DNA of 64,000 nucleotides from Oscillospiraceae bacterium (GTDB taxonomy: Bacteria > Bacillota > Clostridia > Oscillospirales > Oscillospiraceae), in assembly GCA_902787755.1 (NCBI GenBank), contig CADAHL010000003.1, positions 1 to 64,000 of the forward strand, written 5' to 3'. Position numbers and translations under genes: made by a program. The notes beneath the pieces were generated by a model. The model ran no database searches and was not told where the DNA came from. It saw only the letters and a list, made by a program, of their open reading frames with translations. Shown here piece after piece: positions 10,400 to 33,346 of the stretch. Positions within the stretch are counted from its first letter, which is position 1. Each line of letters begins with the position of its first letter.

Positions 10400-12226
10400 A
10401 TGGAAACAAAAAAAGAAAACCTATGGCGCACGGTGGCCGTGTTTGCGCTGATTCTTTGCCTGGTGCTGGGCATTCTGTATCTGACAGCTTTGGCCCCGGG
10501 AAGCCCGAGCGCGGAGACGCAGCCAAGCGGCGAAGAGTCGCCGCTGGTTTCCTGGGCGTCTGATTCTGCGGCAAAAGCCAGTCTTCTCTCTTACATTGAG
10601 GCCGTCACCGAAGAGGGCGGCGCGGATTATATCCCCGTGAAGGATCGCATTGCGGTGTTCGACATGGACGGGACTCTCACCTGTGAGACCTATTACACGT
10701 ACTACGACACCATGATGTTCATCGAGTACTGCCTGGTCGATCACCCGGAGCGAGTGTCGGACGAACTGAAACAGATCGCCGCGTCGATCCAGCCCGGCTA
10801 TCTGGCCGACGAGACCCTGGCCCGGAACTTCGCCAAAGCCTACGCCGGGATGACGATGGAAGAGTTCTATCGCTACGCGGTCGAATTCGGGCAGAAGCAG
10901 ACCGAGAGCTTCGACAACATGCGCTACATCGACAACTTCTACCTCCCCATGGCGGAGCTTGTCCGGTACCTGTATGAAAACGGCTTTACGATCTATGTGA
11001 TCAGCGGCACAGAACGCACCACCACCCGGGCCATTGTGGCCAATTCGCCCATCCGGGATTACGTTTCGCCTAACCACGTGATCGGCACGGACTTTGAAGT
11101 GAAGCAGGCCGGACACGAGACGGAGTCGTCCAATATGGATTTCAAATACGCAAACGGGGACGAGCTGGTCATCACGGGCGGCTTCATTCAGAAAAATCTT
11201 AACGGCAACAAATCCATCTATATCCAGCGGGAAATCGGGCAGCGCCCGGTGCTGGCCTTCGGAAACAGCGGCAGCGATACAAGCATGATGAACTACACGA
11301 TCGACAGCCGGAATCCATATCGGGCCCAGGCGTATATGGTGGTTGCCGACGACGACGTCCGTGAGTGGGGCAAGCAGGACTGGGAGACCAAGTCGGCGGA
11401 TTACACGGCAATGGGCTACATTCCGATCTCCATGAAAAACGACTTCGCGCAGATTTATGCGGAAGGCATCGTCCCCTCTTCCCAGCAGTACCGGGAGCGG
11501 GATTGGACCGCCGCAGTCACGGAGGCGGAGGCCCCGGAAGAAGCGCAGAGCGCGGATCCCGACGTGATCCTTTCGGACGATTCTTCCGATTTTGTCCTGT
11601 TGAGCGAAGCCGTGCCCGACGCCATTTTGGAGATCCGGTATTACTCCACCTATAACTTTGTCGGAGACCGGATCAACGGATACGAAGAACCGCTCGCCAT
11701 GTTGACCGCGGAAGCCGCAGACGCGCTGCGGGAAGTCAGCGACGAGCTCATGGGCATGGGCTACCGGCTGAAAATCTTTGACGCCTATCGGCCGCAGATG
11801 GCCGTCACGCATTTCATGAACTGGGCGCTCGACACGGAGGACACCCGCATGAAGGCGTATTTCTACCCGGAGCTGGACAAAGACGTGCTCTTCCCCCAGG
11901 GCTACATTGCGGAGCACTCAGGCCACAGCCGCGGCAGCACCGTGGATCTCACTCTGTTTGATATGACGACGGAGCGGGAAGTCGATATGGGCGGCACCTT
12001 TGACTATTTCGGAGAGCTGAGCCATCCGGACTATACCGGCATTACCGAAGAGCAGTATGCCAACCGCATGATTTTGCGCGAGGTCATGTTGAAGCACGGC
12101 TTCAAGCCCCTGGCCGAGGAATGGTGGCACTTCACCCTGGAGAATGAACCGTATCCGAACACCTATTTCACCTTCCCCATCAACAGCGACTCCATCGCCG
12201 CCCTGAGCCAGGAGAACGCGGCGTAA
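10400..12226 (+). CDS. Membrane-anchored HAD phosphatase-VanX (D-Ala-D-Ala dipeptidase) fusion
   Basis: The 608-aa two-enzyme protein starts with an N-terminal TM anchor (about residues 11-31) followed by a Ser/Glu-rich spacer. This suggests both domains face outside. Residues about 80-380 form a HAD-superfamily domain with the DMDGT nucleophile motif at 88-92, VISGTERTT and GNSGSD. Residues about 400-600 are a VanX/DdpX-type M15D peptidase. DAYRP, SGHSRGSTVD (His 509, Asp 516) and EWWHF (Glu 574, His 577) match the zinc ligands and catalytic Glu of VanX, with the same H-x6-D and E-x2-H spacing. It may trim cell-wall dipeptides and dephosphorylate an envelope substrate. ATG at 10400 follows GAAGAGAGG. 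There is no vanH/vanA gene nearby, so a resistance role is doubtful. Confidence 0.85.
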   Translation: METKKENLWRTVAVFALILCLVLGILYLTALAPGSPSAETQPSGEESPLVSWASDSAAKASLLSYIEAVTEEGGADYIPVKDRIAVFDMDGTLTCETYYTYYDTMMFIEYCLVDHPERVSDELKQIAASIQPGYLADETLARNFAKAYAGMTMEEFYRYAVEFGQKQTESFDNMRYIDNFYLPMAELVRYLYENGFTIYVISGTERTTTRAIVANSPIRDYVSPNHVIGTDFEVKQAGHETESSNMDFKYANGDELVITGGFIQKNLNGNKSIYIQREIGQRPVLAFGNSGSDTSMMNYTIDSRNPYRAQAYMVVADDDVREWGKQDWETKSADYTAMGYIPISMKNDFAQIYAEGIVPSSQQYRERDWTAAVTEAEAPEEAQSADPDVILSDDSSDFVLLSEAVPDAILEIRYYSTYNFVGDRINGYEEPLAMLTAEAADALREVSDELMGMGYRLKIFDAYRPQMAVTHFMNWALDTEDTRMKAYFYPELDKDVLFPQGYIAEHSGHSRGSTVDLTLFDMTTEREVDMGGTFDYFGELSHPDYTGITEEQYANRMILREVMLKHGFKPLAEEWWHFTLENEPYPNTYFTFPINSDSIAALSQENAA

Positions 12227-12359
12227 GAAATACGGAACAGTTCACGGAAAGAAAGAGAGTTTCACGGTATGGAAACGGATCGGTCGTGACCACACATAAA
12301 GAGGAAGCGCTCCGGGTTCCGTTCCCGGTCCGCTGCGGGGAAGCATGGGAGGCGAAAGA

Positions 12360-12854
12360 ATGGAGACAGAATTGAGGCGCTGCCGCAGCAATCTCAGCAT
12401 TCTCGGCAGCGGGGTGATCGTGTTTACGGTCTGGGAGCTGATCAGGCCCATTCTGATCAGCCTGCTGGTGCAGAAGACAAGCGATGCGGCACCGGCAGAC
12501 GTGTCGGTGCCGGAGCTTCCGCTGGAGTTGGTCGTTTTGTTGATCGCGGCGATCCTGGCGCTGGCTGTCCTGGATCTCCTGCTGCGCTTTCATATCGGCC
12601 GCGCGGCGCGGGCAGAGGCAGCGGGAAAGCGAAAAGGGAACGCGTATGTGGTCTTTGCGTTTTTGATCTTCGGTTTTCAGGCGATCGGCCTCCTCGTCAC
12701 GGTCATTCAGCTGTTTCGGGCCGGACTGATGGAATCGTCCATTTTGGATACCGCCGCATCTCTGCTGGTTGAGCTTGGCTCCACCGTCATCATGGGAGAG
12801 CTGGCCTTCACCGCTGTAAAAGTCAAAAAGCTGAGCAAGCCGGACATTGGGTGA
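12360..12854 (+). CDS. Four-TM membrane protein of unknown function
   Basis: The 164-aa product has hydrophobic segments near residues 20-37, 57-78, 100-122 and 132-153. No family is recognised. The start at 12360 follows GGGAGG. It lies 6 nt before the DUF6765-like gene, so the two are probably co-transcribed. Confidence 0.65.
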   Translation: METELRRCRSNLSILGSGVIVFTVWELIRPILISLLVQKTSDAAPADVSVPELPLELVVLLIAAILALAVLDLLLRFHIGRAARAEAAGKRKGNAYVVFAFLIFGFQAIGLLVTVIQLFRAGLMESSILDTAASLLVELGSTVIMGELAFTAVKVKKLSKPDIG

Positions 12855-12860
12855 ACAGAC

Positions 12861-14027
12861 ATGCAGAAGGATTTTCATTATTACGCCACATACTGCGCCG
12901 CGCGCATCGCGGGCTACTCCCACGATCAGGGGATGGAGATCTGCTACAGCTCTCAGCTGGTGGACTGGTGCTCCAAGACCTTTCTGTCCAAGCTCAGCGG
13001 TCCGCCCGCCGCGGCAACGACACAGCTGCAGCTGGAGCTGATGGAGGCCAGGACCGATCTTGTCGGCCTGCAGGACATCACCCGCATCTGGGCGTCCTTT
13101 CATTTTTTGCCCTATGACCTGTATGCGCCGGTCAAGCGCGGCTTCCGCACCTACCGAAACAAATACCGCCTGATCTGTCAGCCGAACGGCGCGCTGGTGA
13201 GCGACACCGTGGAACTGGCAAAAAAGCGCGGTACGCAGGCGGTCGGGATCGCGATGCACGTGCTGGCCGACACCTGGGCGCACCGGAATTTTGCCGGAAC
13301 GCCGTCTCTTGTCATCAACAACACGGACGCCTATTTCTATGAGCTGGTCGAGCAGGAGGGCGAGGAGCAATGGCGCCCCGTCCGTTTCCGCCACAGCCCC
13401 GGCGCGCCGGATGAGCTGGAGCAGGGGCTTTACAGCAACAGCATCTATCAGTGGGAGGAAAGCTCCATCATGAACCTGGGGCACGGCCGGGCCGGCCACC
13501 TTCCGGACTACAGCTTCGCCCGCTACAAGTATCTGCCCGCCTGGGCCGATTACGAGGAAAGCTTCAAGGACAATCCCACAGAGTATTACAAGGCCTTCTG
13601 CCAGATGATCCACGCCATGCAATATCTCCGGGGCGCTGTCCCGGACTTCTCGCTGGATACCTATGCCTATGAAGTGGCCGCCCCCTGGGCGGAGGAGATC
13701 CGCAGCATCCTGAACAAGCGGCAGCTCGACGCCTGTGCGGACTGGAAGGCGCTGGCGGAAAAGATCGCCGGGCGGGAGATCGAGGACTTCGATCAGAAAA
13801 AGTACCAGGCTGAATATCTCGCCGCAGAGAAGGCGGAGAAGGCCGGGACTTTCCTGGGCGCGTTCTTTCTCGCGGCCATGGCGCAGAAGAGCATGGTGAC
13901 CAATGCGATCTTTCGCTCCGGGAATCTTCTGGCCGGCTTTTCGGTGGACTTCTCCGAGAAGGGCTTCCGCGGCATCCGGGATTATCGGCATCTACTGGAG
14001 CATGAGAAGGGGGAGAAAACGCAATGA
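12861..14027 (+). CDS. DUF6765-like protein resembling zinc phospholipase C-type folds
   Basis: The 388-aa cytoplasmic-looking protein lacks a signal peptide. It begins MQKDFHYYATYCAARIAGYS. The motif MHVLADTWAHRNFAG (about residues 133-147) resembles the H-x3-D-x2-AH zinc site of phospholipase C/S1-P1-type helical hydrolases, and further His residues (FRHSPG, NLGHGRAGH) are spaced as possible ligands. I recall such proteins as DUF6765; the function is unknown. Its end overlaps the next gene by 4 nt (ATGA), implying translational coupling. Confidence 0.7.
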   Translation: MQKDFHYYATYCAARIAGYSHDQGMEICYSSQLVDWCSKTFLSKLSGPPAAATTQLQLELMEARTDLVGLQDITRIWASFHFLPYDLYAPVKRGFRTYRNKYRLICQPNGALVSDTVELAKKRGTQAVGIAMHVLADTWAHRNFAGTPSLVINNTDAYFYELVEQEGEEQWRPVRFRHSPGAPDELEQGLYSNSIYQWEESSIMNLGHGRAGHLPDYSFARYKYLPAWADYEESFKDNPTEYYKAFCQMIHAMQYLRGAVPDFSLDTYAYEVAAPWAEEIRSILNKRQLDACADWKALAEKIAGREIEDFDQKKYQAEYLAAEKAEKAGTFLGAFFLAAMAQKSMVTNAIFRSGNLLAGFSVDFSEKGFRGIRDYRHLLEHEKGEKTQ

Positions 14028-25218: not shown

Positions 25219-25247
25219 TTGCCTTTTTCGGCAGATAATGGTAAAAT
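25219..25247 (+). promoter_or_regulatory. Promoter of the NHLP-type export operon
   Basis: TTGCCT (25219-25224) and TAAAAT (25242-25247) are 17 nt apart, 73 nt before the first ATG. No other clear promoter or terminator is seen before 33301, so all six genes may share this start. Confidence 0.7.
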
Positions 25248-25319
25248 GTTAATAATACACCGTTGGGACGGCGGGTGTAAGCGCCGTCCCGGGAGATCGC
25301 AGGGCAAAGGAGCGGAATC

Positions 25320-25736
25320 ATGGAGCAAGCGCGTCTGTATCGCAAAGAGAGCCTGGATCGCATCCAGTCTCCCGAACAGCTGAATGATTATCTTCGTGTC
25401 ACCAACCCCAGCGTCTGGATTCTGCTGATCGCGGTGATCCTTCTGCTGGTGGGTCTGTTGGTCTGGGGTTCCCTGACCTACATCGACAGCGTGGTTTATG
25501 GACAGGCTGTGGTAGACCAGGGCGTCATGACGGTCCGTTTCCAGGACCCGGCCGACGCCGAGCGTCTGGAGCCCGGTATGCACGTGGACGCCGGCGGGCG
25601 CATTACCCAGATCAGCAGTCTGGGACGGGATGAGGACGGCGTCTTCGCGCTGGCCGAGACCGACCTGGCCGACGGTCTGTACGAGGTCTCGGTGCGCTAC
25701 AAGCAGACCCAGGTCCTGAAGCTCCTGTTTCGCTGA
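25320..25736 (+). CDS. Short HlyD/NHLM-like membrane anchor protein of the export system
   Basis: The 138-aa product starts MEQARLYRKESLDRIQSPEQLNDYLRVTNP, followed by one TM helix (about residues 34-55). This matches the N-terminus of NHLM bacteriocin-system secretion (HlyD-like) proteins. The extracytoplasmic part (about 56-138) is far shorter than a normal membrane fusion protein and lacks the long coiled coil. It may be a minimal adaptor for the ABC exporter that starts 5 nt downstream. Confidence 0.7.
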   Translation: MEQARLYRKESLDRIQSPEQLNDYLRVTNPSVWILLIAVILLLVGLLVWGSLTYIDSVVYGQAVVDQGVMTVRFQDPADAERLEPGMHVDAGGRITQISSLGRDEDGVFALAETDLADGLYEVSVRYKQTQVLKLLFR

Positions 25737-25741
25737 GGGAG

Positions 25742-27925
25742 ATGAAGATGAGAGCGGATATCCCCAAGCCGATGACAGGAGGCGTGGCCAGAGTCCCTGT
25801 CGTGATGCAGATGGAAGCGTTGGAATGCGGTGCGGCTTCACTGGCCATGATCATGGCCTATTATAAAAAATGGGTCCCGCTGGAGCAGGTCCGTCTGGAC
25901 TGCGGCGTGTCCCGGGACGGCTCCAACGCCAAAAACGTCCTCCTGGCTGCTCGTAATTATGGGTTTCAGGCAGCAGGGTTCCGCTGCGAAACAGATTCGC
26001 TCCGGACCGAGATCCAGCTGCCCTGCATCCTCCATTGGAATTTCAATCACTTTGTGGTGCTCCGGGGCTTCCGGGGCAAATACGCCTATCTGAACGACCC
26101 CGCCCGAGGCGAGATCCGGGTGGGACCGGAAGAATTCAACCGGTCCTTCACCGGCGTCTGCCTCCAGATCACCCCGGGGCCTGAATTTGAGCCCGGCGGA
26201 AAGCGCAAGAGTACTCTGGCCTTTGCCCGGAAACGACTGACCGGTGCGGGCGCGGCGGTGGCCTTTGTGATGCTGTCCACCGCCATCGGGGCGCTGTTCG
26301 GTATCCTCAACCCCGTGTTCTCCAACTTCTTCATGGACCGGCTGCTCACCGGGGAAAACCGGGAGCTGCTGACGCCCTTTCTGATCCTGCTGGCCGTTCT
26401 GGGCGCTGCGCAGATCCTGGTGGCCTGGATCCAGGCCGTGTACTCCCTGAGAATTAACGGAAAAATGGCCCTGGTGGGCAGCAGTTCCTTCTTCTGGAAA
26501 CTGCTGCGGCTGCCCATGTCCTTTTTCAGCCAGCGCATGTCCGGCGACGTGCTTCAGCGCATGGGCTCCAACGCCGCCATCGCGGGGACTCTGGTGGACA
26601 CCTTCGCCCCCCTGCTGCTGAACACCGGCATGATGATCTTCTATTTGGTCGTCATGCTGCGCTACAGCCCGGTGCTGACTCTGGTGGGTCTGGTCACCAT
26701 CGTGCTGAACCTTCTGATCTCCCAGATCATCTCCCACAAGCGGGTGAACATCACCCGCGTCCAACTGCGCGACAGCGGCAAGCTGGCCGCGGCCACGGTA
26801 TCCGGCATCCAGATGGTGGAAACCATCAAGTCCAGCGGCGCGGAAAACGGGTATTTCCAGAAGTGGGCCGGGTACCAGGCTTCCGTCAACGCCGCGCAGG
26901 TCCGCTTCGCCAGGCTGGATCAGTATCTGGGCATGATCCCGGCGCTGCTCAGCTCCCTGGCCGGCGCGGCTGTGCTGATCCTGGGCGTCCGGCAGGCCAT
27001 GGACGGGCAGTTCACCATCGGTATGATTCTGTCCTTCCAGGGCTTCCTGAGCGCCTTTATGTCCCCTGCCATGCTGCTGATCTCCGCCGGACAGTCCATC
27101 CAGGAGATGCGCACGGAGATGGAGCGGGTAGAGGACGTGATGAGTTACCCCGACGATCCCGTTTTCAGCGACGCCCCACTGACCGAGGAGCAGGACTACT
27201 CCAAGCTCTCCGGCGAGGTGGAGCTGCGCCACGTCACCTTTGGCTACTCCCCTCTCAGCCAGCCGCTGATCCGGGATTTCTCCCTGCACGTCAAGCCCGG
27301 CAGCCGGGTTGCCTTTGTAGGCGGCTCGGGCTGCGGCAAGAGCACGCTCTCCAAGCTCATCTCCGGTCTCTACCAGCCCTGGAGCGGTGAGATCCTCTTC
27401 GACGGCAAGCCGATCTCCCAGATCGACCGGAGCGTGTTTACCGGCTCGGTGGCGGTGGTGGATCAGGACATCGTCCTGTTTGAAGACACGATCGCCAACA
27501 ACATCAAGATGTGGGACAGCTCCATCGAGGACTTCGAGATGATCCTGGCCGCCAGGGACGCCCAGATCTATGACGATATCATGGCGCGGGACGGCGGCTT
27601 CTCCGGTATGCTCACCGAGAACGGACAGGATCTGTCCGGCGGACAGCGGCAGCGTCTGGAGATCGCCCGGGTCCTGGCCCAGGACCCCACCCTGATCATC
27701 CTGGACGAGGCCACCTCCGCCCTGGACGCCCTGACCGAGTACGAGTTGGTAAAGGCCATCAAGGACCGGGGCATCACCTGCATCGTGATCGCCCACCGGC
27801 TGTCCACGATCCGGGACTGCGATGAGATCCTGGTGCTGGATAAGGGCGCCGTGGTCGAACGCGGGACGCATGACGAGCTGTACGCCAGGGGCGGTCTTTA
27901 CGCCGACCTGATCGCCAGCAGCTGA
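25742..27925 (+). CDS. NHLP-family bacteriocin exporter: C39 peptidase/permease/ATPase
   Basis: The 727-aa product has an N-terminal C39 peptidase that cuts leaders after a double glycine. The catalytic Cys is 29 (EALECGAASLAMIM), the His lies in NFNHFVVLRGF (about 100) and the Asp in YLNDPARGE. A six-TM ABC permease (about 165-450) follows. The nucleotide-binding domain has GGSGCGKST, LSGGQRQRLEIAR, LIILDEATSALD and an IAHRLST switch. It cleaves and exports small leader peptides, and its likely substrates are encoded at 30258 and 33083. Start ATG at 25742 or 25748, both after AGGGAG. Confidence 0.93.
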   Translation: MKMRADIPKPMTGGVARVPVVMQMEALECGAASLAMIMAYYKKWVPLEQVRLDCGVSRDGSNAKNVLLAARNYGFQAAGFRCETDSLRTEIQLPCILHWNFNHFVVLRGFRGKYAYLNDPARGEIRVGPEEFNRSFTGVCLQITPGPEFEPGGKRKSTLAFARKRLTGAGAAVAFVMLSTAIGALFGILNPVFSNFFMDRLLTGENRELLTPFLILLAVLGAAQILVAWIQAVYSLRINGKMALVGSSSFFWKLLRLPMSFFSQRMSGDVLQRMGSNAAIAGTLVDTFAPLLLNTGMMIFYLVVMLRYSPVLTLVGLVTIVLNLLISQIISHKRVNITRVQLRDSGKLAAATVSGIQMVETIKSSGAENGYFQKWAGYQASVNAAQVRFARLDQYLGMIPALLSSLAGAAVLILGVRQAMDGQFTIGMILSFQGFLSAFMSPAMLLISAGQSIQEMRTEMERVEDVMSYPDDPVFSDAPLTEEQDYSKLSGEVELRHVTFGYSPLSQPLIRDFSLHVKPGSRVAFVGGSGCGKSTLSKLISGLYQPWSGEILFDGKPISQIDRSVFTGSVAVVDQDIVLFEDTIANNIKMWDSSIEDFEMILAARDAQIYDDIMARDGGFSGMLTENGQDLSGGQRQRLEIARVLAQDPTLIILDEATSALDALTEYELVKAIKDRGITCIVIAHRLSTIRDCDEILVLDKGAVVERGTHDELYARGGLYADLIASS

Positions 27926-27938
27926 GAGGAGGCAGGAT

Positions 27939-30140
27939 ATGAGTTGGTTTGACGACCAGATCCGACAGCGCAAGCAGAAGGATCAGGAGATCTTCGAAGA
28001 CTCCATTTTCCGCATGGCCTCCGTGGTGCTGGGCAAACGAAACGCGGGCTCTCTCAACGATCAGCGGATCGTCACCAAAGCGGCCATCGATGAGATCCTG
28101 AAATTCTACGGTATCAAGCCCGGAGAGATCCCGGACAATCTGGAAGACGCGGAGGAGCAGCTGGAATACTGCCTGCGGCCCCACGGGATCATGCGCCGGA
28201 ATGTCCAGCTGGAGGAGGGCTGGTATCGGGACGCCTTCGGCCCCATGCTGGGTTTTTACGGTCCGGAGCAGATCCCGGTGGCTCTTCTGCCCAATTCCCT
28301 GGTGGGCTATCACTTTCTGGACCCCGCCAGCGGTGAAAAGCGCGCCCTGAACAAAGAAACCGCCGCCCTGTTCTCCGCGGACGCCATCTGCTTCTACCGC
28401 CCTCTGCCGCTGAAAAAGCTGGGGATCCCAGATCTGCTCGCCTATCTGCGGGATTGTCTGAGCGCAGGGGATGTGCTGGCCCTGGCCGCGCTGACCCTGC
28501 TGGCCACTCTGGTGGGCATGCTGATGCCCCGCATCACCCGGGCCCTGACCGGCGTGGTGCTGGAGCGCGGCAGCCTGTCCATGCTGGCCGGCGGCGCGGT
28601 GTTCACGGTATGCACCCTTGTCTCCATGCAGCTGATCTCCAGTGTCCGTGAGCTGATGATGAGCCGGATCCAGATCAAGACCTCTCTGGCCGTGGAAGCC
28701 GCGGTCATGATGCGGGTCATCAATCTGCCGGCGGATTTCTTCCGGAAGATGTCTTCCGGCGAGCTGTCCAGCCGCTTCGGTTCGGTCAATCAGCTCTGTG
28801 ATCTGCTTCTGGGAAGCGTCTTCTCTCTGGGGCTGAGTTCTCTGATGTCCCTTCTGTACATTACGGAGATCTTCCGCTACGCGCCGGCCCTGGTGCTGCC
28901 CGCCCTGGGCGTGATCCTGCTGAGCGTGGGCATCGGCGCCATCGCCTCGCTGGTTCAGATGAAGATCAGCCAGCAGGCCATGGAGCTGGGCGCCAAGGAT
29001 GAAGGGCTGAGCTTCGCTCTCATCAACGGCATTCAGAAGATCAAGCTGGCCGGTGCGGAAAAGCGGGCCTTCGCCCGCTGGGCGCAGTCCTACTCCGAAG
29101 TGGCGGAGCTGAGCTACGATCCGCCGCTGTTTCTGAAGATCAGCAGCGTGATCACCACCGCCGTCTCCCTGGCGGGTACGCTGCTCATGTACGCGCTGGC
29201 GGTAAAGACCCACGTCAGTCCTTCCGAGTACCTGGCCTTCAACGCCGCCTTCGGCATGGTCTCCGGCGCCTTCTCCGCCTTGAGTGCCGTAGCTCTCACC
29301 GGCGCCAAGATCCGTCCGATTCTGAACATGGCGGAGCCCATTCTGAAGACAGAGCCGGAGTCCTCCGAGTCCAAGTCCGTAGTCACGCGGTTATCCGGCA
29401 GTATTGAGCTGTCCAATGTGTATTTTCGCTATCGGGAGAGCATGCCCTATGTGATCGAAGGCATGAATCTGAAGATCCGCAGCGGAGAATATGTGGCCAT
29501 TGTTGGTTCCACGGGCTGTGGCAAAAGCACGCTGATACGACTGCTGCTGGGCTTCGAAAAGCCGGAGAAAGGCGCGATCTATTATGATGGCCGGGATATG
29601 AGCAAGCTGGATCTCCGCTCCCTGCGCCGCAAGATTGGAACCGTCATGCAGAGCGGCAGCCTCTTCCAGGGCGATATCTATTCCAATATCGTGATCTCCG
29701 CCCCTCAGTTGTCCCTGGAAGATGCCTGGGCCGCAGCGGAGCTGGCCGGGATCGCAGACGATATCCGGGCCATGCCCATGGGGATGCAGACCTTGATCTC
29801 CGAAGGACAGGGCGGGATCTCCGGCGGGCAGAAGCAGCGGCTGATGATCGCCCGAGCTATAGCGCCCAGGCCCAAAATCCTCATGTTTGACGAAGCCACC
29901 TCTGCTCTGGACAATCTGACTCAGAAGCGGGTATCGGAAGCGCTGGACACCCTCAAATGCACCCGGATTGTGATTGCCCACCGCCTCAGCACCATCCGCA
30001 ACTGTGATCGGATCCTGGTGCTGGACAAAGGTCACATCGTAGAAGACGGCAGTTATGATGAGCTGATCGCCAGAAACGGACGGTTTGCGGCGTTGGTCGC
30101 CAAACAGAGACTTGACACGGAGGGTGGTTCTGCCACATAA
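27939..30140 (+). CDS. NHLP-family exporter, second ABC permease-ATPase subunit
   Basis: The 733-aa product has an N-terminal cytoplasmic region (about 1-165; MSWFDDQIRQRKQKDQEIFEDSIFRMASVV, PEQIPVALLPNS) without a peptidase, characteristic of the partner subunit in NHLM systems. Six TM helices follow (about 180-450) and then an ATPase with GSTGCGKST, ISGGQKQRLMIAR and MFDEATSALD. It should pair with the peptidase-bearing subunit 13 nt upstream to form a heterodimeric exporter. The ribosome site is GAGAGGAGG. Confidence 0.92.
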   Translation: MSWFDDQIRQRKQKDQEIFEDSIFRMASVVLGKRNAGSLNDQRIVTKAAIDEILKFYGIKPGEIPDNLEDAEEQLEYCLRPHGIMRRNVQLEEGWYRDAFGPMLGFYGPEQIPVALLPNSLVGYHFLDPASGEKRALNKETAALFSADAICFYRPLPLKKLGIPDLLAYLRDCLSAGDVLALAALTLLATLVGMLMPRITRALTGVVLERGSLSMLAGGAVFTVCTLVSMQLISSVRELMMSRIQIKTSLAVEAAVMMRVINLPADFFRKMSSGELSSRFGSVNQLCDLLLGSVFSLGLSSLMSLLYITEIFRYAPALVLPALGVILLSVGIGAIASLVQMKISQQAMELGAKDEGLSFALINGIQKIKLAGAEKRAFARWAQSYSEVAELSYDPPLFLKISSVITTAVSLAGTLLMYALAVKTHVSPSEYLAFNAAFGMVSGAFSALSAVALTGAKIRPILNMAEPILKTEPESSESKSVVTRLSGSIELSNVYFRYRESMPYVIEGMNLKIRSGEYVAIVGSTGCGKSTLIRLLLGFEKPEKGAIYYDGRDMSKLDLRSLRRKIGTVMQSGSLFQGDIYSNIVISAPQLSLEDAWAAAELAGIADDIRAMPMGMQTLISEGQGGISGGQKQRLMIARAIAPRPKILMFDEATSALDNLTQKRVSEALDTLKCTRIVIAHRLSTIRNCDRILVLDKGHIVEDGSYDELIARNGRFAALVAKQRLDTEGGSAT

Positions 30141-30257
30141 TAAAAGGGGGGCTGATTTTCAGTTTTTCCCGAGCGAAGTCCCGTAGTCCGATTTGTAGTA
30201 TGATCTGGCCTTTTTTTCGGAGGCCTTATCAATATAGAAAAGAAAGGAAGAAAAACC

Positions 30258-30572
30258 ATGTCTATTGAAAAGCTGAACGACGAAGTGCTGGAGGGTGTCT
30301 CCGGCGGCATGACCGCAAACCTGAAGGCTGCCTATGCCTGCATCGACGGCGTTTACGGCAACGGCGAAGCCCGCGTGGCCGCTCTGAGAAGGGCCGGTTT
30401 TGACCCCAAGGTAGTGCAGGGTTTGGTAAACGACCTGCTCAAGTACGAGAAGGTGGCCAAGGATGTGATCGACGGCAAGTACGGCAATGGCGAAGCTCGT
30501 CGGATCGCGCTGGAGAAGGCCGGCTACTCCTACAACACCATTCAGAATCTGGTCAACAATATGCTGCTGTAA
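30258..30572 (+). CDS. Double-glycine-leader protein carrying two CW_7 (Cpl-7) repeats
   Basis: The 104-aa precursor has a 17-residue leader ([17 protein letters not shown]) ending in Gly-Gly, the C39 cleavage signal. The 87-residue remainder is two tandem repeats of about 40 residues (about 22-62 and 63-104), each with the pattern ID-G-x-YGNGEAR-x2-AL-x2-AG-x4-(V/I)Q-x-LVN. That pattern matches the CW_7 cell-wall-binding repeat of the Cpl-7 lysozyme (muropeptide binding). No catalytic domain, and no Cys/Ser/Thr-rich core of a modified peptide, is present. It follows the two exporter genes, with a strong AAGGAAG ribosome site. I infer an exported peptidoglycan-binding protein. A bacteriocin role is possible. 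Confidence 0.85.
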
Positions 30573-30614
30573 GGCTCTGCCGAAACTGCAGTAAAAAAAA
30601 TACGGGCGATATCG

Positions 30615-30639
30615 CGGGTTCCGGTCGAACCGGATCCCG
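30615..30639 (+). promoter_or_regulatory. Stem-loop between the CW_7 and lipoprotein genes
   Basis: CGGGTTCCGGT and ACCGGATCCCG form an 11-bp stem with one mismatch and a 3-nt loop, without a T run. It could stabilise the upstream message or reduce read-through. Confidence 0.45.
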
Positions 30640-30664
30640 TGTTGCCGCTCAGACGGAGAAACGT

Positions 30665-33064
30665 ATGAATAAAAAATCAATTCTTTGTCTTCTGCTGGCC
30701 CTGGTAATGCTTCTCTCCCTGGCGGCATGCGGCATGGACACCAAGCCCGCGGAAGAGCCCCAAAGCCAGGAGGCCGACACGCCCCCCGCTCACGAGGAGC
30801 TCCCTGTAGAGACTCCCGCCCCCACTCCCGAAGCCGCTCACGAGGTCGATCCTCTTCTGCAGGCTCTGTTTCTGTCCCTGCCTTCTATCCGGCAGGACGA
30901 TTCCCGCCAGTGGCGTTACGCGGTCACGGACCTGGACCACAACGGTCGTTTTGAGATTTTGGCCGCGACCCAGCACCAGGCAGACCGCGCCACCACGCTG
31001 AAGCTCTGGGAGCTGAGCGAAAATCACGACGCCTTGCTGGAGTGCTCCATCCCTCTGCAGGAGGATGAGTCCTTCCCCGATATTCTGTCGGATAATACCG
31101 ACACCTTCTACAACGCTTCCACCAACACCTGGTCCTATCTGTTCTACGACACCATTCTGCTGTCCGAGAACGAGGCCTACACCGCCAAGTGCGCCGTTAC
31201 GCTGAAGGACCAGACTCTGCGTTATGAGAGCTTTGCCTTCCAGTATGTCTCCTCCGTGAACGGACAGCACATCGTCAATTTCATTGGCCTGGACGGCAAG
31301 GAGATCTCTCCGGAGGACTACAACTCTGCCGGTCAGCTGGCCTTCTTCGGCTGGGAGAAGAGCAGCACCAACTTTGGCTGGTTCTCCTATGAGGACGCCA
31401 CCGACGCCACCTGCCTGGAAGAGAGCCTGGGCGTCTTCAACGGCGAGCGGACTCCCGACAAGACCAATCCCCTGCCCGTGCCCCAGCCTCTGGGACAGGT
31501 CGATCCTCAGGGTCCCTCCTCCGGCTCCGCTCCCCTCTTCCTCTACGTCACCAAGAACCCCACCAACGAGAGACGGGACGAGGGCCAGACCGCTTATTTT
31601 GTGGCCTTCTCCAACATCTACACCTCTCTGAGCTGGACCTTTGTGTCCCCCGAGGGTGTGGAGTACACGCCCCAGAACTTCGCCAACAAATTTCCCGGCA
31701 TCGTGCTGGACGGTCTGTACAGCACCACGCTGAGCATCGGCAAGCTCCCGAAGGGCGCCGATCGCTGGGGCGCCTACTGCACCTTCAACTATGACGGTCA
31801 GACCGCCCGGACCAACACCGCTTACCTCAGCGTCATTCCCAAGCCCACGCCGACGCCCACTCCCACGCCCGCGCCCACTACGGCTCCCACGCCCACCGCG
31901 GCGCCTGTGCCCACCACCCGGCCCGTTCCCCCTGAGGGCGAGGTTCTGGCCAAGGGCGGCTTCAGCTCCGATACCGGGACCGGCCTGGATCTGTGCTGCG
32001 ACTGGGTGGCGACGCGGATCGGCGAGCACCGTGCGGACCTGACCATCGGCATCAGCATCCGTTCCGCCACCATCAACCTCAACCAGCTGGCCAACGGCTT
32101 CCACATTGAGCTTGGCTCGAGCGCTCAGGATCTGACTCAGCCCGCGATGAACTACAGAGGCGGCAAGACCACCACTTACCTGGGCGGCACCAGCTATGTG
32201 CTGGATCTGGCGGAAGGCGTCAATGAACTGCCCCTGTCCCTGGTCTGGCATTTCCGGGGCACCTATGGCGGCAAGTCCATGCAGGACATCACCTGCGGCG
32301 GCAACGTCGTCATCGTGGAGCTGCCCACCCCGACGCCCGAACCGGAGCCCACTCCCACTCCGGAACCCATTCCGGAGCCCACTACAGAGCCCTCTCCGGA
32401 ACCCGAACCGGAACCGATCTACGCCTCCATGGCCGGCAACGTCTTTAACATCGACGCTGAGCGCTACACCATCGTCCTGGCCAATGGCATGACCGTGACC
32501 GTGGATCCGTCTGCTTGCCGTCTGTGCTACGGGACGCTGGCCGAGGGCTGCGACTGCACCGTGTACTACGAGAATGAGCCCAGCGATACCTCCATCTACC
32601 TGGTGGATATCTACGGCGAGGTGGAGCCCGCTCCTGAACCGGAGCCCGCTCCCGAGCCGGAGCCCGCTCCTGAACCGGAACCCGCTCCCGAACCGGAACC
32701 CGCTCCCGAACCGGAGGTCGTTGACCTGAGCGGCAGCTACCAGTCCAGTACGGACAGCCGGATCGAGATGAAGCTAAGCACCACGGACAAGACCCGGTAT
32801 GAGATCACCGTGATCGTGCCCACCAGCGACACCGAGCGGGTCCGTTGGGTCTTCCACGGCAGCTTCGGCGAAGACGGAAAGCTGAGTTACACCGACGGTG
32901 TCAAAACCGTTGAGGTTCTGGGCGAGGACGGTCAGTACGCCGCCCAGAGTCAGGTTACCGGCACCCGGGGCAGCCTGGTCCTGAACAAGGACACCGGGCG
33001 GCTCTCCTGGACCGAGGAGACCGAAGGCAGCGCCAAAGATATGGCGTTTGCAAAGAAATCTTGA
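30665..33064 (+). CDS. Large lipoprotein with Pro-rich spacers, in the export operon
   Basis: The 799-aa precursor has a lipobox LSLAAC placing lipid on Cys 22. An acidic, Pro-rich tether leads to a globular domain (about 65-270; [18 protein letters not shown]). Ig-like segments follow, separated by PTPTPTPAP (about 391-420), [13 protein letters not shown] (about 555-585) and a tandem EPAPEPEP repeat (about 655-680). The C-terminal domain (about 685-799) reads [17 protein letters not shown]. No enzyme motif is seen. Such spacers usually cross or reach out of the wall. It may be the surface receptor, immunity factor or scaffold for the exported modules. Gap to the next gene is 18 nt. Confidence 0.75.
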
Positions 33065-33082
33065 GAATAGGAGACTAAAACT

Positions 33083-33283
33083 ATGAATGCAGCTCCCCTG
33101 GAAGATGATGTGCTGGAAGCCGTCAGCGGCGGAACCGTGATCCCCTATATCGTCAATCCCGGCGATACCGTTGAGTCCATTGCCAAGAAGTTCCACTGCA
33201 CGGTAGAGCAGATCTGCCGCTGGAACAACCTGCGCAATCCTCAGGATCTGAAGGTTGGCCAGAAGCTGACGATCCGCTTCTGA
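33083..33283 (+). CDS. Double-glycine-leader protein carrying one LysM domain
   Basis: The 66-aa precursor has a 17-residue leader (MNAAPLEDDVLEAVSGG) of the same length and nearly the same end as the CW_7 protein (D-[ED]-VLE-x-VSGG). The 49-residue remainder is a complete LysM domain (YIVNPGDTVESIAKKF, then QICRWNNL, and LKVGQKLTIRF), which binds GlcNAc-containing glycans such as peptidoglycan. Nothing else is attached. It is the last gene of the operon, followed by a terminator at 33301-33346. Its co-occurrence with a C39 exporter makes export after leader removal the simplest reading. Confidence 0.88.
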   Translation: MNAAPLEDDVLEAVSGGTVIPYIVNPGDTVESIAKKFHCTVEQICRWNNLRNPQDLKVGQKLTIRF

Positions 33284-33300
33284 GTCCTCCGTTAACCGCA

Positions 33301-33346
33301 ATACCCCCTGGCCGGCCGCAGCTGCGGCCGGTCAGGGGGTATTTTT
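33301..33346 (+). terminator. Terminator of the NHLP export operon
   Basis: A long GC-rich hairpin (ATACCCCCTG...CAGGGGGTAT, with the inner CCGGCCGCAGCTGCGGCCGG) is followed by T5. Confidence 0.92.

Follow-up and report, generated by a model that had tools for sequence, protein, structure and literature searches.

Within a 64,000-nucleotide stretch of an Oscillospiraceae bacterium genome (assembly GCA_902787755.1, contig CADAHL010000003.1, positions 1 to 64,000; here called the window) lie six genes, all on the + strand and contained in positions 25320-33283. In order, they encode a stub of an HlyD-like adaptor, an ATP-binding cassette (ABC) exporter with a C39 peptidase domain, a second ABC subunit, a small protein with a double-glycine (GG) leader and CW_7 repeats, a lipoprotein, and a second small GG-leader protein with a LysM domain (Table 1). 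A sequence-only reading of the region had described the exporter, with intact Cys, His and Asp in its peptidase, its ABC partner, and the two leader genes with their cargo of two CW_7 modules and one LysM module, and each of these elements has held up; the stub that opens the cassette and the lipoprotein gene between the leader genes are additions to that account. What such an exporter is likely to deliver, and where, is the subject of this analysis.

Table 1. Features of the cassette, in window coordinates (aa, amino acids)
Feature	Position	Strand	Basis
HlyD-like adaptor stub, 138 aa	25320..25736	+	TIGR03794 34.3 bits, profile positions 1-62 of 421
C39 peptidase-containing ABC transporter (ABC1), 727 aa	25742..27925	+	TIGR03796 914.5 bits; PF03412
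Partner ABC permease/ATPase (ABC2)	27939..30140	+	TIGR03797 711.3 bits
Promoter-like TTGACA-18-CATAAT, ahead of the CW_7 gene	30112..30141	+	consensus match only, 11/12
17-aa leader and two CW_7 repeats, 104 aa	30258..30572	+	PF08230
Lipoprotein, 799 aa, Pro-rich linkers, without GG leader	30665..33064	+	lipobox LAAC by eye
Beta-sandwich domain inside the lipoprotein	31937..32326	+	AF2 model, all beta
17-aa leader and one LysM, 66 aa	33083..33283	+	PF01476

Both ABC subunits score above the curated cut-offs of their models (853.3 bits for TIGR03796 and, narrowly exceeded, 709.4 bits for TIGR03797), and the peptidase part of ABC1 matches PF03412 at 112 bits. The catalytic residues C29, H103 and D119 are invariant across six aligned exporters (alignment A1) and correspond to C27, H101 and D117 of LahT (PDB 6MPZ), with which the C39 domain aligns without gaps (expectation value (E) 4.6e-69, 97/139 residues identical). 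On this likeness ABC1 is predicted to cleave leaders and to export the cargo. In place of an HlyD subunit of the NHLM type there is a conserved stub, well under the TIGR03794 cut-off of 156.2 bits; its homologue cluster is present in 21 of 23 exporter loci, and a mediocre AlphaFold2 (AF2) model (mean predicted local distance difference test score (pLDDT) 78, predicted template-modelling score (pTM) 0.52) shows one long predicted helix and a small beta domain.

The LysM gene starts with the leader MNAAPLEDDVLEAVSGG, and the CW_7 gene likewise with 17 residues that end in GG. Both leaders carry Leu at -12, Leu at -7, Val at -4, Ser at -3 and the double glycine, in agreement with the requirement described for substrates of LahT, a C39 peptidase-containing ABC transporter (PCAT) (PMC6363468). 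The portions of that study drawn on here portray LahT as substrate-tolerant: it cleaves many substrates, including a 17-residue peptide that bears the last 13 leader residues; cutting is blocked or impaired by charge at -4 or -7 and by most changes of Leu-12, and Glu-8 of the leader is dispensable (PMC6363468). Among 77 unique GG-leader proteins with a CW_7, LysM, SH3-like or beta-sandwich domain, position -12 is L, I, M or V in 76 and position -10 is D or E in 75; the selection was made on positions -7, -4, -2 and -1, and -12 and -10 played no part in it. (Thirteen proteins did not pass the leader filter. They comprise four lipoproteins, four in which inspection by eye shows a GG leader, one truncated by a contig end, one whose frame started too early and whose leader gene was seen separately, one fragment, and two that are leaderless, in loci L170 and L098.) The leaders are not of the NHLP or Nif11 type: the NHLP model finds no match in either leader gene, and the Nif11 model reaches 16.0 bits against a cut-off of 32.3, with the match lying off the leader. 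The term 'NHLP' in the sequence-only reading therefore stands as the database name of the exporter models and fails for the leaders. No Sec signal is evident by eye on either leader gene. The leaders are credible as C39 substrates because the peptidase domain is near LahT, the residues critical to LahT are kept, positions -12 and -10 are conserved, and the ratio of nonsynonymous to synonymous substitution (dN/dS) is low: with the leader counted in, it lies at 0.09-0.21 in the CW_7 gene and at 0.10-0.29 in the LysM gene, in each case over six pairs of four sequences.

The cargo domains lie far above the Pfam cut-offs, PF08230 recognizing two repeats in the CW_7 protein (E 1.2e-27, 95.8 bits, cut-off 25) and PF01476 a single LysM (E 3.4e-17, 62.5 bits, cut-off 20.9). 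The mature CW_7 protein would have 87 residues and an isoelectric point (pI) of 9.1, the mature LysM protein 49 residues and a pI of 9.2, and the cargos are mostly basic as families (CW_7, median pI 8.98, range 5.23-9.63; LysM, median 9.23, range 5.93-11.27). Pfam finds no catalytic domain in either gene, both being leader and binding domain only, so that neither is an endolysin or autolysin in the usual sense. The nearest described modules are those of the Cpl-7 endolysin, whose CW_7 repeats bind the muropeptide GMDP through Arg, Gln, Asn and Ile contacts modelled by docking; in the sections consulted, replacements of the Arg and Gln weakened the signal and the Ile mutant gave a result that was difficult to read (PMC5705596). 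Both window repeats retain the corresponding I, N, R and Q, and among 20 unique leader-CW_7 repeats the Arg and the Gln are each conserved in 19, the Ile in 16 and the Asn in 14. Unlike Cpl-7-type endolysins as described there, whose binding domain is strongly acidic, the window protein lacks a catalytic domain, has a GG leader and is basic (PMC5705596). Binding of peptidoglycan by the CW_7 protein in this organism is what these conserved residues would suggest. In the source genome (2.54 Mb, 92% complete) there is no second CW_7 match; one further LysM match lies in a 463-residue frame, taken, without a family search, as an ordinary wall- or spore-type enzyme. Two trivial origins were considered and rejected. 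Chance matches to CW_7 or LysM are at odds with the scores, the selection and the recurrence of these genes. A phage lysin fragment is at odds with the missing catalytic part and with the 101 matched phage records all being less than 60% identical (each of the 12 listed carries the name lysin, endolysin, muramidase or amidase).

The association of leader, domain and exporter was followed through a genus sample of 102 genomes. A leader-CW_7 profile matched 56 of them, 51 strongly; of 79 strong matches, 76 begin at profile position 6 or earlier, in the leader, and the other three cover the C-terminal part only, so homologues do keep the leader. An exporter at least 72% identical is present in 58 genomes (63 matched in the scan, and five with a best identity below 72% were excluded). 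Both elements occur in 48 genomes, the exporter only in 10, the strong CW_7 match only in 3 and neither in 41 (Fisher p 3.5e-15, kinship ignored). The 11 weakest of the 90 leader-CW_7 rows were omitted from this count, which scores five genomes with weak matches only as without CW_7; one of these (G317) has a true leader-CW_7 gene, another (G316) has its match at a contig end, and including both gives 50/58. In G339, one of the three with CW_7 only, an exporter match split in two frames lies near the CW_7 gene. Linkage is close in part: 38 of the 79 matches are within 12 kb of the exporter, in 33 of the 51 genomes, and the other 41 are elsewhere in the genome or on other contigs. It appears that many relatives have a single exporter working for several scattered precursor genes. 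Among LysM genes, 22 of 23 have a GG leader in 20 sampled regions that were hand-picked, mainly because small LysM frames lie in them at a distance from the exporter. Two genomes have multiplied theirs, near-identical leader-LysM genes lying on three contigs of G343 and two copies that encode the same protein in G325 (L158, L159, L160, L161), in each with a conserved segment ahead of the LysM; these are recent duplications. The sequence-only reading had named in advance three outcomes that would tell against it, namely noise-level profiles, leaderless homologues and the lack of any link to C39 exporters, and none of the three was found.

Further afield the pattern fades. In a family sample CW_7 occurs in 11 of 300 genomes, five of them of the same genus; outside it, leader-CW_7 genes were seen in two genomes (G084, G292) of one other genus, with CW_7 in long frames in G145 and G282 and in small frames that lack a GG leader in G041 and G258. 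Of 394 genomes sampled across the order, 18 gave matches to the leader-CW_7 profile, near full length (3-107) only in the source genome; the other matches are mainly to the domain, in frames of 242-594 residues, the exceptions being a match over 5-98 in a 388-residue frame (E 8.8e-4) and one in a 28-residue frame. The leader-LysM profile matches near full length only in the source genome among 388, and in 43 others the matches at E <= 1e-8 are shorter, reaching at most, among those listed, 12-84 of 88 in a 443-residue frame. Outside the genus and a few relatives the combination of leader and CW_7 or LysM is thus, as judged by these profiles, rare or diverged. Fourteen of the 20 closest named loci (from the best 80 of 527 relatives) carry RUG names, which we take to denote rumen genomes, and two titles refer to goat ileum and sheep rumen.

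The repertoire around related exporters is wider than the window alone would indicate. Of the 21 loci annotated around the closest exporters (the window, L042-L060 and L072), 14 have a leader protein with CW_7, LysM or a beta-sandwich domain (in L055 a remnant at a contig end); 60 more distant loci include six with a leader and an SH3-like domain and two with a leader and LysM. SH3 cargo beside related exporters had been anticipated by the sequence-only reading and is indeed found at some of them; the calls come from a custom four-sequence profile, and of four such proteins put to Pfam SH3_3 those of L092 and L074 pass, that of L071 falls below (22.1 against 27 bits) and that of L068 gives no match. 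Its statement that the leaders carry only wall-binding modules holds for the two window genes and has to be relaxed for relatives, which also have leader-sandwich genes. The sandwich domain, 130 residues long, was recognized in the 799-residue lipoprotein (sandwich hidden Markov model, E 8e-13), a protein whose homologue cluster is present in 8 of 23 exporter loci; the AF2 model of the domain (pLDDT 88, pTM 0.80) has no PDB match at E <= 0.001 (best E 7.1e-3). In relatives the domain is itself GG-leader cargo, and a further setting for it is proteins that combine a hydrophobic N-terminal segment with a Pro-rich stalk (five were read, and the source genome has one at G000:C40:13839-14213, L195:1959-2726); some sandwich protein is present in 94 of the 102 genus genomes. 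Its appearance on a lipoprotein, on stalk proteins and as exported cargo ties the exporter to the envelope.

Several described systems share parts of this arrangement. MAM of Faecalibacterium duncaniae, a GG-leader protein encoded beside a C39 exporter, is the most abundant envelope protein of its producer (PMC12184118). The likeness, drawn from the available description, is in the leader and the adjacent exporter, the envelope abundance being MAM's own feature; MAM has no known domain, in contrast to the peptidoglycan-binding modules, several cargo types and dispersed paralogues seen here (PMC12184118). Similarly, EbfG1-4 of Synechococcus elongatus are small GG-motif proteins with a C39-type transporter, PteB, and a structural or social role in biofilms; these are cyanobacterial proteins, likened by description and not by sequence, and the parts of the account at hand mention neither LysM nor CW_7 (PMC4997328). 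LahT, of Lachnospiraceae C6A11, shares its peptidase domain and key leader positions with the window; its own precursors, as presented there, are ribosomally synthesized and post-translationally modified peptides (RiPPs) with Nif11-type leaders, in contrast to short leaders with no modifying enzyme noticed (PMC6363468). (Inspection by eye of the translated 18-42 kb region brought no modifying enzyme to light; the family-library scan covered only part of the open reading frames.) The NHLM cassette (Haft 2010, PMC2887384) shares both ABC subunits and differs in its full HlyD and in its cargo, the window proteins matching neither of its leader models; in the main text of that paper LysM, SH3, cell wall and CW_7 are absent (PMC2887384). 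In a body of 5.39 million open-access papers, the matches listed include no C39 exporter that carries LysM, CW_7 or SH3 cargo, subscription papers being mostly outside that scope. The parts are known, then, and the pairing of a C39 exporter with wall-binding cargo, as a genus-wide family, is undescribed as far as literature searches show. MAM and EbfG may be regarded, by analogy, as precedents for the principle (PMC12184118, PMC4997328).

Reading these sequences together, we think it fairly probable, and well short of certain, that this exporter gives its producer's own envelope a cladding of small, unmodified proteins that bind the wall, and does not release killing peptides. The C39 domain would cut each precursor after the double glycine; the ABC pair would export the CW_7 and LysM proteins, steps for which LahT homology and co-occurrence argue; and the modules would bind the producer's own peptidoglycan and stay attached, forming a coat made up of individual binding modules. 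The lipoprotein would be exported by Sec and anchored in the membrane, and would probably belong to the same surface layer. That the target would be the producer's own wall is suggested by the MAM precedent, as far as described (PMC12184118), by the lack of a known toxic domain and by the sandwich and lipoprotein connection. Among the purposes proposed in the sequence-only reading, own-wall decoration is accordingly the candidate favoured over competition; shielding against lysozyme or lysins, competition with autolysins and adhesion are candidate uses of such a coat.

A number of observations weigh against this cladding of the envelope. The genomes compared are drafts; 10 of the 58 genomes with the exporter show no strong leader-CW_7 match; seven of the 21 closest loci have no CW_7, LysM or sandwich cargo in the available stretch; and two genomes (G328, 65% complete, and G333, 80%) have leader-CW_7 and yield no C39 match. 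Small CW_7 frames without a GG leader occur in other genera of the family (L035, L036), the sandwich cargo is acidic (median pI 5.46), and a single LysM or CW_7 may bind only weakly. The muropeptide bound by Cpl-7 CW_7 is common to many bacteria, so that neighbours could be the target (PMC5705596). G318 (93% complete) and G319 (83%) have leader-LysM genes and no C39 peptidase was found in them; either dependence on C39 is less than strict or the assemblies have missed the exporter. These two genomes, with the 41 matches that are not near an exporter, are what could be said for genes that this exporter does not serve, their leaders being relics and their products staying inside or leaving otherwise, which we regard as very improbable with the leader consensus kept across four domain types, strong co-occurrence, no evident Sec signal and purifying selection over leader and domain together.

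Wall-targeted antagonism is the more serious competitor, and an unlikely one in our estimation. Class II bacteriocins have a short core, unstructured or membrane-active, and an adjacent immunity gene. The window cores are instead CW_7 or LysM domains, and no immunity gene was recognized in the window, where no dedicated search was made. Released modules would, on the antagonist reading, bind the peptidoglycan of competitors and harm them by, for example, blocking wall synthesis or disturbing autolysins, in the manner of headless endolysins or of a new bacteriocin class. The known role of C39/NHLM exporters in bacteriocin and RiPP secretion (PMC2887384, in the sections seen) speaks for it, as do the presence of CW_7 in phage lysins and the generality of its muropeptide ligand (PMC5705596), the patchiness of the exporter in the genus (58/102), and a 131-residue gene, found in 7 of 23 exporter loci and not in the window, that could confer immunity. 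The cargo genes, however, have no catalytic or other known toxic domain and are under purifying selection, and multiple dispersed paralogues of one binding domain suit a structural role better.

It is less probable again that the modules act as anchors or adaptors that hold another surface protein, the lipoprotein or a sandwich partner, on the wall. The lipoprotein gene does sit between two leader genes in the window and in L042, L043 and L072, and the sandwich recurs as free cargo, in the lipoprotein and on membrane-anchored stalk proteins, with some sandwich protein in most genomes of the genus. Direct signs of module-lipoprotein binding are lacking, however; leader-CW_7 and leader-LysM genes also occur without a lipoprotein homologue in the available stretches of L031, L032, L044 and L052, and the lipoprotein evolves faster than the cargo genes (dN/dS 0.40-0.50, three pairs).

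The envelope-cladding reading can be extended, tentatively and with the odds in our judgement somewhat against it, to a mode of secretion in which one C39 exporter serves dispersed CW_7, LysM and SH3 modules, or a partner sandwich, behind the same short leader, and the removable coat on the producer's wall occupies sites of lysozyme, phage lysins or autolysins. If true, cells would have here a means of building and adjusting their surface besides Sec signals, sortase and S-layers. The exporter-family models are named for 'bacteriocin export', which invites reading their neighbours as antibiotics; with MAM and EbfG, to the extent described (PMC12184118, PMC4997328), the locus suggests that envelope building may instead be the task of a number of the 'bacteriocin' exporters found in Clostridia, in which case the annotation of such loci would change. 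The locus also offers natural, very small peptidoglycan-binding modules.

Other exporters of this kind keep different company. The source genome has a second NHLM cassette (G000:C2:79532-84210, L037), with an ABC1 ~42% identical and an HlyD protein of 283 residues, and ~5 kb away (C2:89886-90194, L038) a gene whose long GG leader is Nif11-like by eye and whose core has 31 residues, hydrophobic and basic, so that it looks like an ordinary bacteriocin precursor; a peptide-type exporter therefore seems to be already supplied in this genome, a point in favour of the envelope reading for the window cassette. Some of the distant loci likewise have long leaders, Nif11-like by eye, and cysteine-rich cargo: such genes lie beside related exporters in L069 (14845-17496), L085, L094 and L102, mostly with cysteine-rich cargo and in arrays in the first three, one member put to Pfam giving no match. 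The 131-residue gene referred to above (L045:15894-16289) belongs to no Pfam family and has a hydrophobic stretch. Regarding expression, the region ahead of the CW_7 gene has 8 promoter-like sites, compared with 1.8 (sd 1.2) in shuffles. A STAS-domain gene lies beside the HlyD stub in a homologue cluster that covers 13 of 23 loci (for example L031:9108-9407) and does not include the window; the leader genes of L031 adjoin one for a SpoIIE-type phosphatase that has a sensor domain (10750-13470), and the phosphatase and STAS genes together suggest partner-switch regulation there.

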